Shown here piece by piece: positions 3,839 through 51,542 of a DNA stretch of 64,000 nt. Source of the stretch: Hymenobacter perfusus (lineage in GTDB: Bacteria; Bacteroidota; Bacteroidia; Cytophagales; Hymenobacteraceae); contig NZ_RWIU01000004.1 in the NCBI RefSeq assembly GCF_003944765.1, positions 124,001 to 188,000 of the forward strand, written 5' to 3'. Each line of letters begins with the position of its first letter. Position 1 is the stretch's first letter. The notes beneath the pieces were generated by a model. The model searched no databases and had not been told where the DNA came from. It saw only the letters and a program-made list of their open reading frames with translations. A program made the position numbers and the translations under genes.

Positions 3839-4048
3839 TCAGGCTGCCCGTCGCCCGGTCACGGCCAGCTGGTGGCTGCTCACGTCCTGGTTTCGTACGG
3901 TTGCGCTGGCTCCGCTGACCCGCCGGGCGCTGCTTTCCAGCAGCTGGCGGGTGGGCCGGGTAGCGGCACCTACCACCGTGGGACCCAGCAGAACAGCCAA
4001 GAGCAACGTGGGCAGCAAAACAGCGAGAAACGTACGAACCAGGGACAT
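3839..4048 (-). CDS. Small membrane or secreted protein, unknown
   Basis: About 69 residues from the ATG at 4046-4048. One hydrophobic segment near the start (SLVRTFLAVLLPTLLLAVLL) is followed by a polar, Arg/Ser-rich tail of about 45 residues. A 15-residue longer form is possible from an ATG at 4093. No family recognised. It could be a small inner-membrane protein or a secreted peptide. It lies between the PAP2-like gene and rpoN on the same strand, but a hairpin downstream of rpoN suggests separate transcription from rpoN. Moderately confident it is real, because the hydrophobic start and basic tail look protein-like. Confidence 0.45.
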   Translation of the reverse strand: MSLVRTFLAVLLPTLLLAVLLGPTVVGAATRPTRQLLESSARRVSGASATVRNQDVSSHQLAVTGRRAA

Positions 4049-17811: not shown

Positions 17812-17831
17812 AAGCGGGGTTATTTTCTCAC

Positions 17832-17883
17832 AAAAAAGGCGTACCGGAAAATCAGTCAACTGATCTTCCGGTACGCCTTTTTT
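17832..17883 (+). terminator. Strong terminator after the 16954 lipoprotein
   Basis: An 18-bp perfect stem (17832-17849 with 17866-17883) with A-run and T-run flanks, enclosing a smaller ATCAGT-CA-ACTGAT palindrome. It is 20 bases past the stop codon. Confidence 0.85.
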
Positions 17884-17994
17884 GTGTCTGTCTGGGAATA
17901 ATGTCACAAATAAGACCGAACCGGCCTTGTCAACGGCTCCAAATACTCCGCTATTGCTGCTATCCTTTCCATCCTAGCAGTTCAAGTTTATTTC

Positions 17995-18414
17995 ATGAAA
18001 AGTACTGGTTTCGCCCGATTTGCGTTGGTTCTGGGCTCCGTTGCGCTGGGCAGCTGCTCCATAGTGCCGGAAGCCGCCACGCCCTCTTCCTCCACTCAGT
18101 CAGCCAATAACGTTGCTCCTATCTGTCCCGATGGCGACTGTCCTCCCGGGGGCGGTGGTGGCACCGGAGGTGGTTACACTCCTACCTGCGTGGCTCCCAC
18201 CAGCACTATCCGGGCGCGTATCGTCCGGGAAGCTCGGCTGTACGCCTACGGCCGGAGCTGGGAACCACTCAATGTCATTGTAGGTACGCAGGGCTGCGAC
18301 GGTATCTATCCATTCAGCGTAGAATTCAGAACGCAAAACGGCGTCGAAAGCTGGGTAGGTGGCCGCTATAACGTAAACACCGGAGAAATCGACGTGGATT
18401 ACATTGATCTGTAG
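17995..18414 (+). CDS. Small lipoprotein with Gly-rich linker
   Basis: 139 residues. Signal peptide with lipobox LGSC (Cys21). A Pro/Gly stretch (CPPGGGGGTGGG) at about 48-60 links the anchor to a compact 75-residue domain with RARIVREARLYAYG and YPFSVEFR. Four to five Cys may pair. No family recognised. The stop codon lies inside the start of the large hairpin at 18413. Confidence 0.7.
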   Translation: MKSTGFARFALVLGSVALGSCSIVPEAATPSSSTQSANNVAPICPDGDCPPGGGGGTGGGYTPTCVAPTSTIRARIVREARLYAYGRSWEPLNVIVGTQGCDGIYPFSVEFRTQNGVESWVGGRYNVNTGEIDVDYIDL

Positions 18415-18489
18415 CACGACAGCACTCTACTCAAAATGGCCCCGGATGCGCAGTATCCGGGGCCATTTTGAGTAGAGTGCTGTCGTGCT
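18413..18489. terminator. Very long perfect hairpin between convergent genes
   Basis: 35-bp arms (18413-18447 and 18455-18489) are perfectly complementary around a 7-base loop. It begins at the stop codon of the lipoprotein (+), 33 bases from the end of ispD (-). AAAATGGCC within the stem gives a T-run for either direction. Much longer than an ordinary terminator. Confidence 0.85.
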
Positions 18490-18521
18490 CGTGAGCCAGC
18501 ATTCCTATTGTTACTCAGATG

Positions 18522-49161: not shown

Positions 49162-50034
49162 TCAGCCCCGGGCGCGGCGGCGCAGGAACTCGCGCAGGGC
49201 CCCGGTGAGCGGCTCGGCGGTGCTGAGCTGGTGGTAGTCGAAGCCGTGGGAGCGGGCGCGCTGGGCCGTGTCGCGGAGCCACTGCTGGAGCTGCTGCTGC
49301 CAGGCGCGGCGCTGCTGGCCGGCATCCAGCTGGAGCTGCTGGCCGGTTTCGAGGTCCTCGAAGGTAATGGCGCCTTTGAAGGTAAACTCCAGCTCGTTGC
49401 GGGCCATCAGGTGCAGCAGCAGCACTTCGCCGGAAGCGGCGCGCAGGCGGGTCAGCAGCCGCTCAATCTCGCCGCTGGCCTCGTACAAATCACTCACGCA
49501 GATGGTCAGGGCGGGTTGCCGCCGGGCCGTAAGCGGGGCCAGAGTGGCCGAATCGGGGAATTGGCCAGCGGCCTCGGTGGTTTCCAGGGCGTGGTAGAGG
49601 CGGCTGAGCTGACGGGCATCGGCGCGAGGCGGCAGGTGGCGCAGGCCGCCGGGGTGCAGCACCGTCAGGGACACCGCGTCGCCCTGCTGGGTGGCCACGT
49701 AGGCCAGGGCCGCGCACAGCAGCCGGCCGTAGTGCAGCTTGCTCAGGCCGTTATCATCCTGGTGGTTCATGCTGGCGGTGGCATCCAGCACGAGGTGGAC
49801 CACCAGGCTGGTATCCACCTCCGACTCGCGCAGGTAGTACCGGTCGGAGCGGGCGGCCAGCCGCCAGTCGAGGCGGCGCAGGTCGTCGCCGGGCTGGTAG
49901 GGGCGGTACTGGCTGAACTCCATGCCCGCCCCCTTGCGCCGACTCAGGTGCGCCCCGTGCAGCAGCCCCTCAGCGGCGCGCCGGGCCGCCAGCGGCAGGT
50001 TCTGCAAGGCGTGAAGGTATTCGGGGGTGAGCAT
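49162..50034 (-). CDS. DUF58 domain protein (vWA-like)
   Basis: 290 residues, start ATG at 50032-50034. The DUF58 signature YQPGDDLRRLDW (about 47-58) and a vWA-like LVLDATASM (about 82-90, Asp and Ser of a MIDAS) are present. DUF58 proteins pair with MoxR ATPases as putative chaperone or metal-insertion partners. Cytoplasmic. Separated from MoxR by 355 bases of repeats, unusual for this normally tight pair. Confidence 0.92.
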   Translation of the reverse strand: MLTPEYLHALQNLPLAARRAAEGLLHGAHLSRRKGAGMEFSQYRPYQPGDDLRRLDWRLAARSDRYYLRESEVDTSLVVHLVLDATASMNHQDDNGLSKLHYGRLLCAALAYVATQQGDAVSLTVLHPGGLRHLPPRADARQLSRLYHALETTEAAGQFPDSATLAPLTARRQPALTICVSDLYEASGEIERLLTRLRAASGEVLLLHLMARNELEFTFKGAITFEDLETGQQLQLDAGQQRRAWQQQLQQWLRDTAQRARSHGFDYHQLSTAEPLTGALREFLRRRARG

Positions 50035-50074
50035 GAGGTAGGGGTTGGGGGTATGCGGGTAAGCGTTTCGTGGC

Positions 50075-50167
50075 GGCAGTAGCGCGAACTTTGTAGTTCG
50101 CGTTTCCGTGCCGATAGCGTGGTTGGAATGGCGCGGGGCCGCGAACTACAAAGTTCGCGCTACTGCC
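50075..50167. repeat. Perfect 28-bp inverted repeat in the DUF58-MoxR gap
   Basis: 50075-50102 and 50140-50167 are perfectly complementary over 28 bases (outer GGCAGTAGCGCGAAC, inner TTTGTAGTTCGCG) with a 37-base spacer. Possible strong transcript hairpin between MoxR and DUF58, or a mobile-repeat footprint. Confidence 0.85.
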
Positions 50168-50182
50168 CAACGGCCCGATCTG

Positions 50183-50372
50183 CGCTTGATGAAGACCTCC
50201 CCGCGAATTGGAAGGTCGCTTTTCGCCTGATGAGGACCTCCCCGCGAGATGGAAGGTCACTTTTCGCTTGAAATGGGGCTTTCCATCTCGCGGGGAGGTC
50301 CTCGTCAGGCGAAAGATGGCGTTACCAACGTCGGTAATGCTTGTCGTCAGGTGAAAGATGCCGTTACCAACG
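50183..50372. repeat. Composite direct/inverted repeat (41-42 base period)
   Basis: Two-and-a-bit tandem units start at 50183, 50224 and 50265 (unit CGCTTGATGAAGACCTCCCC...). The second unit (50221-50253) pairs with 50281-50313 at 32 of 33 bases. The same strand then has direct repeats of GTCAGGCGAAAGATGGCGTT (50304-50330 and 50346-50372, period 42). The total structure fills the MoxR/DUF58 gap. Confidence 0.8.
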
Positions 50373-50389
50373 CCGGGCAGGGGGCCTGA

Positions 50390-51367
50390 CTACAAACGAA
50401 CGGCTTTCAGCAGGGCGGCTACCGCGTCGTCGGGAGTGAGGTTTTCGGCTTCGGCGTTGAAGTTGAGCAACACCCGGTGGCGCAGCACGGCCGGGGCCAG
50501 GGCCTGCACATCCTCCAGGGTGGCGGCGAAGCGGCCGTGCAGCAAGGCCCGGGCCTTGGCGCACAAAATCAAGGCCTGTCCGGCCCGGGGGCCCGCGCCC
50601 CAGCGGCCGTACTCCCGAATAAACGGCACTTCCGACGTAGCCGGCCGCGTAGCCCGCACCAGCCGGTTCACCAGCCCCATCAGCTCCGCGCTGATGCTTA
50701 CCTGCCGCGTGAGCAGCTGCAGCTGCCGCACTTCCTCACCGCCCAGAATGGGCTGCACCTGCTGGCGGCTGGTGCCGGTGGTGCCGCTGAGTACGGCCAG
50801 TTCCTCCTGCTCGGTGGGGTAGCCGATGCGCACGTACAGCAGAAACCGGTCGAGCTGAGCTTCGGGCAGCGGGTAGGTGCCGCTCTGCTCGATGGGGTTC
50901 TGGGTGGCCAGCAGGAAGAACGGCTTGGGCAGCGCGTGCTCCTGGCCGGCGTAGGTTACGTGGCCTTCCTGCATGGCTTCCAGCAGCGCGGCCTGAGTTT
51001 TGGGCGGCGTCCGGTTAATCTCATCGGCCAGTACCAGACTGGCGAAAATGGGGCCGGGGTTGAACTTGAACGAGCGGTGGCCGGTGCCGTGGTCTTCCTC
51101 CAGAATCTCGGTGCCCAGAATATCGGTGGGCATCAGGTCGGGGGTGAACTGGATGCGGCGGAAGGGCAGGTCCATGGCCTGGGCCAGGGTGCGCACCAGC
51201 AGGGTTTTGGCCAGGCCCGGTACGCCTTCCAGCAGGGCGTGGCCCCCGGCCAGCAGGGCCACCAGCACTTCTTCCAGCACCTCGTGCTGGCCCACAATCA
51301 CCTTTCCTATTTCCTGTTTGAGCAGCGGAATTTTGGCCAGTAGGCGGGTTACGTCTTGTTCGGTCAC
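50390..51367 (-). CDS. MoxR family AAA ATPase
   Basis: 325 residues from a GTG at 51365-51367 (the in-frame TTG at 51436 looks unlikely). MoxR ATPases are thought to act as chaperones for DUF58/vWA partners. Motifs: Walker A EGVPGLAKT, pre-sensor FTPDLMPTDILGTEI, Walker B SLVLADEINRTPPKTQ, sensor 1 ATQNPIEQSGTYPLPEAQLDRF. First gene of the minus-strand cluster, followed by the repeat-rich gap and DUF58. Confidence 0.95.
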   Translation of the reverse strand: MTEQDVTRLLAKIPLLKQEIGKVIVGQHEVLEEVLVALLAGGHALLEGVPGLAKTLLVRTLAQAMDLPFRRIQFTPDLMPTDILGTEILEEDHGTGHRSFKFNPGPIFASLVLADEINRTPPKTQAALLEAMQEGHVTYAGQEHALPKPFFLLATQNPIEQSGTYPLPEAQLDRFLLYVRIGYPTEQEELAVLSGTTGTSRQQVQPILGGEEVRQLQLLTRQVSISAELMGLVNRLVRATRPATSEVPFIREYGRWGAGPRAGQALILCAKARALLHGRFAATLEDVQALAPAVLRHRVLLNFNAEAENLTPDDAVAALLKAVRL

Positions 51368-51542
51368 CGGGAGCGGGCGTTGAAAGTCAGGGAAAAGATG
51401 GCGAATACCGCAACAAAGTCCGGTAAAGCCTGCCAAGGCTGCTTATAGGCAGGCTGGGTACATAAATTTTCTTGCGGCGGTAAAGTCTGATTAGCGTGGC
51501 GAGTGGTTTGCGGCCGGTCGGCCTAATCTGCTACTTCGGACC

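Follow-up and report, generated by a model that had tools for sequence, protein, structure and literature searches.

Unrelated palindromic repeats fill the moxR-DUF58 junction across Hymenobacter, with a GTAG-class REPIN and a palindromic array in one spacer

The intergenic spacer between moxR and the DUF58 gene of the Hymenobacter genome studied here (G000, 5.1 Mb) is made up of two distinct palindromic repeats stacked right after the moxR stop codon, a GTAG-class REPIN and an array with a period of 41/42 nt, and in most related species the same slot holds palindromic elements of unrelated sequence. The slot tolerates or favours such elements, and they are swapped fast. The REPIN itself is a member of an already known kind; what is noteworthy is the repeated filling of one operon junction by unrelated mobile hairpins.

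The locus lies in a 64,000-nt stretch of Hymenobacter perfusus DNA (contig NZ_RWIU01000004.1, positions 124,001 to 188,000), referred to here as the window, whose coordinates are used throughout. Both genes are on the minus strand: the upstream gene, encoding a MoxR family AAA+ ATPase (Pfam PF07726), spans 50390-51436, with a start that may instead be 51367 and a stop at 50390, and the downstream gene, encoding the DUF58 protein (Pfam PF01882), spans 49162-50034 and starts at 50034. This leaves a spacer of 355 nt at 50035-50389, transcribed in the minus direction, exactly where the first-pass annotation had placed it. That annotation had named RNA folding of the spacer as a check, and when computed the fold reached -188 kcal/mol compared with a shuffled mean of -112 (z -14.4); by this score and by shuffle controls on the sequence, the repeats it had described between the two genes are real and far above chance. 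A tie that it had drawn to a repeat between rpoN and asnS through the words AGGACC and GGTCC proved weightless and was dropped because such words are common in the window (GGTCC occurs 39 times and GGACC 34 times). No repeats were found to link the spacer with the gap at 17812-18521, in which the inverted repeats are ordinary and direct repeats are missing. A perfect inverted repeat of 35 bp around a 7-nt loop lies at 18413-18489 of the window, in a gap called convergent, and is unrelated to the moxR-DUF58 finding. Rfam gave no matches in the window at the gathering score, and sub-threshold microRNA matches were put down to chance hairpins.

The 93-nt element at 50075-50167, to which no strand is assigned, has 28-bp perfect terminal inverted repeats around a 37-nt middle. 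Its arms (50075-50102 and 50140-50167) are complementary at 28/28 positions, as the first reading had claimed, whereas in 200 shuffled versions of the spacer no perfect inverted repeat was longer than 10. The arms contain two GTAGCGCGAACTTTGTAGTTCGCG units inverted relative to each other, both of them hairpins: REP unit 1 (50079-50102, plus strand) can be read directly in the sequence as GTAG followed by CGCGAACT-TTGT-AGTTCGCG, and REP unit 2 (50140-50163, minus strand) is its inverted copy. What had been overlooked is that this repeat is dispersed. The family occupies at least 20 full-length places in its own genome, the moxR-DUF58 one included, plus 8 partial ones, with both two-arm and one-arm copies, and GTAG CGCGAACT TTGT AGTTCGCG is present with few mismatches in 17 two-arm copies. 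The middle varies in sequence among the copies, the distance from GTAG to CTAC runs from 81 to 103 nt, and of the 18 copies examined in context every one is intergenic, 15 lying in same-strand gaps. Matches to the REPIN occur in 72 of 120 Hymenobacter genomes, its own included.

This anatomy matches the published description of REPINs (PMC3116915). The inverted doublet of GTAG-tagged palindromes is common to the window element and to known REPIN/GTAG REP-RAYT systems (PMC3116915, PMC3733652, PMC2817692), as are the loose middle, the intergenic position, the singlets and, in relatives, a cognate RAYT flanked by the same repeats. The differences are the Bacteroidota host and an own genome without a cognate RAYT; a 2013 survey found GTAG REPs in Proteobacteria, Cyanobacteria, Chloroflexi and PVC, and in Bacteroidetes CGTC REPs only (PMC3733652).

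RAYT genes with the same REPIN on both sides are found in at least nine congeners (G001, G003, G087, G016, G037, G078, G113, G114 and G052). The loci L193, L198, L199, L200, L206 and L212 encode Y1 proteins of 196-199 aa, with the motifs NHVH, KGYTA and NNPVKA, between two REPIN copies, and three further RAYT loci (L270, L271 and L272) have the same REPIN flanks. All three proteins tested exceeded the cut-off of NF047646 (REP-associated tyrosine transposase), L206 and L200 being flanked by the REPIN type of the window and L191 by a variant REP. Variant REPs at other RAYT loci (among them GTAGCGCGGACTTTGTAGTCCGCG, GTAGCGCGGACTTTCAGTCCGCG and GTAGCGCGAAGTTTCCACTTCGTG) have stems altered on both sides, so that the changes are compensated, which fits RAYT-REP co-evolution (PMC2817692). 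By motifs alone, the Hymenobacter RAYTs can be assigned to TnpA-REP subclass 2.4/RAYT group 4, as their NHVH and Y-x-x-N-N-P motifs agree with the 2.4 signature, and this subclass has been reported from Bacteroidetes (PMC6006769). The best-scoring Y1 transposases of the genus, which are IS200-like, were also considered as the mover of the REPIN and were rejected, since these top 30 PF01797 loci are not REP-flanked. Two RAYT genes with internal stops (G043:C1:1955301-1955888 and G039:C11:571299-571895) are probably pseudogenes.

Searching the own genome with PF01797 gave no matches, and a profile search returned one diverged RAYT-like paralogue only (L257, C7:1209569-1210129), which is without the conserved GYT tyrosine and without REPs nearby; the REPINs of this genome therefore look orphaned, a cognate RAYT being undetectable there. 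RAYT-less REPINs are known in E. coli, and a RAYT in the same genome is thus not a required feature (PMC8049555). Many congeners have similar weak matches, which points to a domesticated paralogue. Some genomes have many candidate REPIN copies yet no close cognate RAYT (G064, G084 and G045, compared with G078), so that copy number shows no obvious dependence on the presence of a RAYT.

The element at 50075-50167 is thus a REPIN of a mobile, dispersed family, and the earlier suggestion of a scar left by a mobile repeat is well supported for the 28-bp repeat, both by the dispersed family and by the RAYT genes that relatives carry between the same repeats. A 93-nt element with 28-bp inverted ends might also be taken for a classical MITE, a DDE transposase element with terminal inverted repeats, but a search for target-site duplications at the 17 two-arm copies found none beyond a 4-nt match at one of them, every arm is a GTAG hairpin on its own, one-arm copies are present, and the same repeats are carried by Y1-type RAYT genes. 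We disfavour the DDE-MITE interpretation, which we consider extremely improbable.

Between the REPIN and moxR lies the array, at 50176-50376. It begins with two direct 41-nt units (50176-50216 and 50217-50257, plus strand, 83% identical) that have the imperfectly palindromic core GACCTCCCCGCGAGATGGAAGGTC. An inverted copy of the second unit (50270-50314, minus strand) forms a 45-bp hairpin with 50221-50265 at 89% complementarity; within it the arms 50221-50254 and 50281-50314 are complementary at 33/34 positions, close to the 32 of 33 reported initially. Two more direct units (50302-50376, plus strand) follow, containing TTACCAACGTTGGTAA-like palindromes, one of which (50322-50337) pairs at 7/8 positions; here a 33-nt pair (50302-50334 and 50344-50376) lies 42 nt apart with 91% identity, and the 41-42-base period previously noticed was measured as direct repeats at both distances. 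The mobile-scar interpretation found no comparable support in the array, which is unique in its genome: a genome-wide search matched only the array itself, a single locus, and a single match, no more than the control level, was obtained with the linker pattern GGCATCTTT...AAA, so the array does not recur there.

Similar arrays are nonetheless found in three species (G005, G066 and G099), with TTACCA(A/T)CG(A/T)TGGTAA-like palindromes every 41-42 nt in a search that allowed 34-50, and in one of them (L036) the spacing is kept across a switch of core sequence. Approximately 42 nt corresponds to four turns of B-DNA. These phased 16-nt palindromes (G066:C22:884717-884892, G099:C1:988-1128, G099:C282, which is L036, and G005:C1:113489-113588) are mostly intergenic and have variable linkers. 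The period of the window array fits this class, and a single core, that at 50322-50337, is a near-perfect palindrome; judged by these features, the window array likely belongs with the phased palindrome arrays of Hymenobacter.

The moxR-DUF58 spacer measures at least 45 nt in 54 other Hymenobacter loci, compared with a gap of mostly 8-39 nt in outgroups with a recognised moxR (Pedobacter, Fulvivirga and others), the exceptions being one Segetibacter locus (135 nt) and Solirubrum (59 nt). Gap classes were defined with a home-made gene caller, and control gaps were taken from the same genomes. Long inverted repeats were intergenic in 101 of 108 cases. Strict long inverted repeats occurred in 36/50 moxR-DUF58 gaps and 18/28 convergent gaps, in 46/135 of the other tandem gaps and in none of the 46 divergent ones, counts that are not phylogenetically independent since the species share ancestry. 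An RNA z below -4 was obtained for 80% of the moxR-DUF58 gaps (50 other Hymenobacter loci), 34% of other tandem gaps, 82% of convergent gaps and none of the divergent gaps; six of the 50 moxR-DUF58 loci had no meaningful structure. Of the gaps that follow DUF58 in this operon, which are similar in length, 29% were structured (Fisher p 3.7e-7).

By eye the occupants of the slot are unrelated: they include GTAG REPINs, CGTCATGCTGAGC repeats, CACGCAGTGTCTCG types, TTGTCAGTTG types and others. The very abundant CGTCATGCTGAGC family is present in 50 of 61 genomes, with up to 319 motif matches in one and 12 in the own genome, and CGTCATGCTGAGC... elements hold the same slot in several species. These resemble the CGTC-tagged palindromic repeats (PMC3733652), a placement made from tag and palindrome alone, and differ from the window REPIN in sequence and tag; no dedicated transposase is known for CGTC-tagged repeats (PMC3733652). 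The same counts stand for the repeats under the form CGTCATGCTGAGCGNAGNCGAAGCATCTC, and no mover of these came to light. Either insertions land preferentially in the slot, or a hairpin is useful there whatever its sequence.

Comparison with relatives, another check proposed by the first-pass annotation, showed that the nearest relative lacks this exact sequence, an outcome that was half of what that annotation held to count against its reading. In this relative (G110, DUF58 at 93% nucleotide identity) the flanking coding sequences align closely and the spacer is an unrelated one of 113 nt with a z of -2.3; the spacer likely changes by replacement, not point mutation. Although the exact sequence is absent there, other hairpin repeats usually occupy the same slot in relatives. 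In 11 other species the gap is filled by one orthologous REPIN; in most of them moxR takes its TAG stop codon from the GTAG of this element, whose CTAC end stops 2-4 nt short of the DUF58 ATG. Loci with a stop-supplying GTAG and a REPIN making up approximately the whole gap are L060, L065, L068-L070, L076, L079, L080, L082, L090 and L111 (near 3905-4003). Among the 11 species identity is 88% for the arms, 66% for DUF58 fourfold sites and 42% for the REPIN middle, the arms exceeding the fourfold sites in 55/55 pairs. Three arm pairs have changed on both sides in the alignment, a modest signal that exceeds most shuffles, and the arms of two orthologous copies (L068 and L111) have decayed. The conservation of the arms could reflect constraint, or homogenisation or conversion through recopying from other REPINs, as both give the same pattern.

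Strong hairpins without U-tracts inside E. coli operons stabilise upstream genes by blocking 3'-5' exonucleases, so that the upstream mRNA is kept (PMC5927463). With this precedent, and given that the slot is structured in most loci to the same degree as transcript 3' ends, the earlier proposal that the repeats adjust DUF58 relative to MoxR is plausible by analogy. The explanation that we favour, and consider probable, is that mobile repeats have settled in a 3' slot, either permissive or favoured, where their RNA hairpins would favour MoxR over DUF58. The REPIN would be non-autonomous, copied by a RAYT in an ancestor or gained by exchange with relatives, and the 41/42-nt array would be related in design to the phased palindrome arrays of a few other Hymenobacter. 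If the two genes are co-transcribed, the repeats should form two large hairpins without U-tracts in the moxR-DUF58 mRNA, and these would probably act as a 3' barrier guarding the moxR mRNA and lowering DUF58 output, as do the REP hairpins of E. coli malE-malF, with MoxR expected to exceed DUF58. A strong hairpin without a U-tract between operon genes is shared with malE-malF (PMC5927463); unlike there, the Hymenobacter hairpin is swapped for unrelated families between species, and it is known here from sequence. That the junction is under selection for a strong hairpin, whatever its sequence, with unrelated mobile palindromes (GTAG REPINs, CGTC repeats and others) recruited as interchangeable RNA parts that would set MoxR above DUF58, we put forward more tentatively, as a possibility with the balance against it.

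The main rival is that the slot is a neutral safe harbour, a promoterless gap from which palindromes are not purged, where they do nothing useful and come and go by drift and recombination. We regard it as nearly as good as the protective-hairpin reading, and as a serious possibility that falls somewhat short of even chances. None of the 46 promoter-containing divergent gaps is occupied, and promoter absence alone could explain occupancy because convergent gaps are as full, and as structured, as the moxR-DUF58 gap; the different and weakly structured spacer of the sister G110 and the decayed arms of L068 and L111 also fit neutrality. Against it, the gap that follows DUF58 is far less often structured at similar length, the arms are more conserved than fourfold sites, and neutrality predicts occasional loss, yet no Hymenobacter in the set has the short gap of 8-29 nt found in most outgroups.

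Two further accounts would give the hairpins a different role. Were they intrinsic terminators marking a transcript boundary, they would end moxR transcription and DUF58 would have its own promoter. The structure profile is indeed that of convergent, 3'-end gaps, but U-rich tails are mostly missing (a mean of 3.7 T in the 12 nt after the hairpin, with at least 6 T in 9/38), and in the window spacer a search for a U-tract after the hairpins found none, GCCACGAAACGC and AGCGACCTTCCA being what follows them; we consider termination decidedly unlikely. Translational coupling, in which terminating ribosomes would open the REPIN hairpin and allow DUF58 initiation, is suggested by the clade whose REPIN runs from stop to start. 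The window REPIN, however, ends 40 nt before the ATG and has the array between it and moxR, so that coupling too seems unlikely, if a little less so.

The protective-hairpin reading and its neutral rival could be set against each other in this genus. A GTAG REPIN-RAYT system is documented here in Hymenobacter, for which no earlier report was found in the literature searched. With a single operon junction occupied in dozens of species by mobile hairpins of different kinds, the genus offers a natural replicate series, and comparing MoxR/DUF58 mRNA between species with and without hairpins would provide a direct test of whether REPs are junk or regulators of mRNA.
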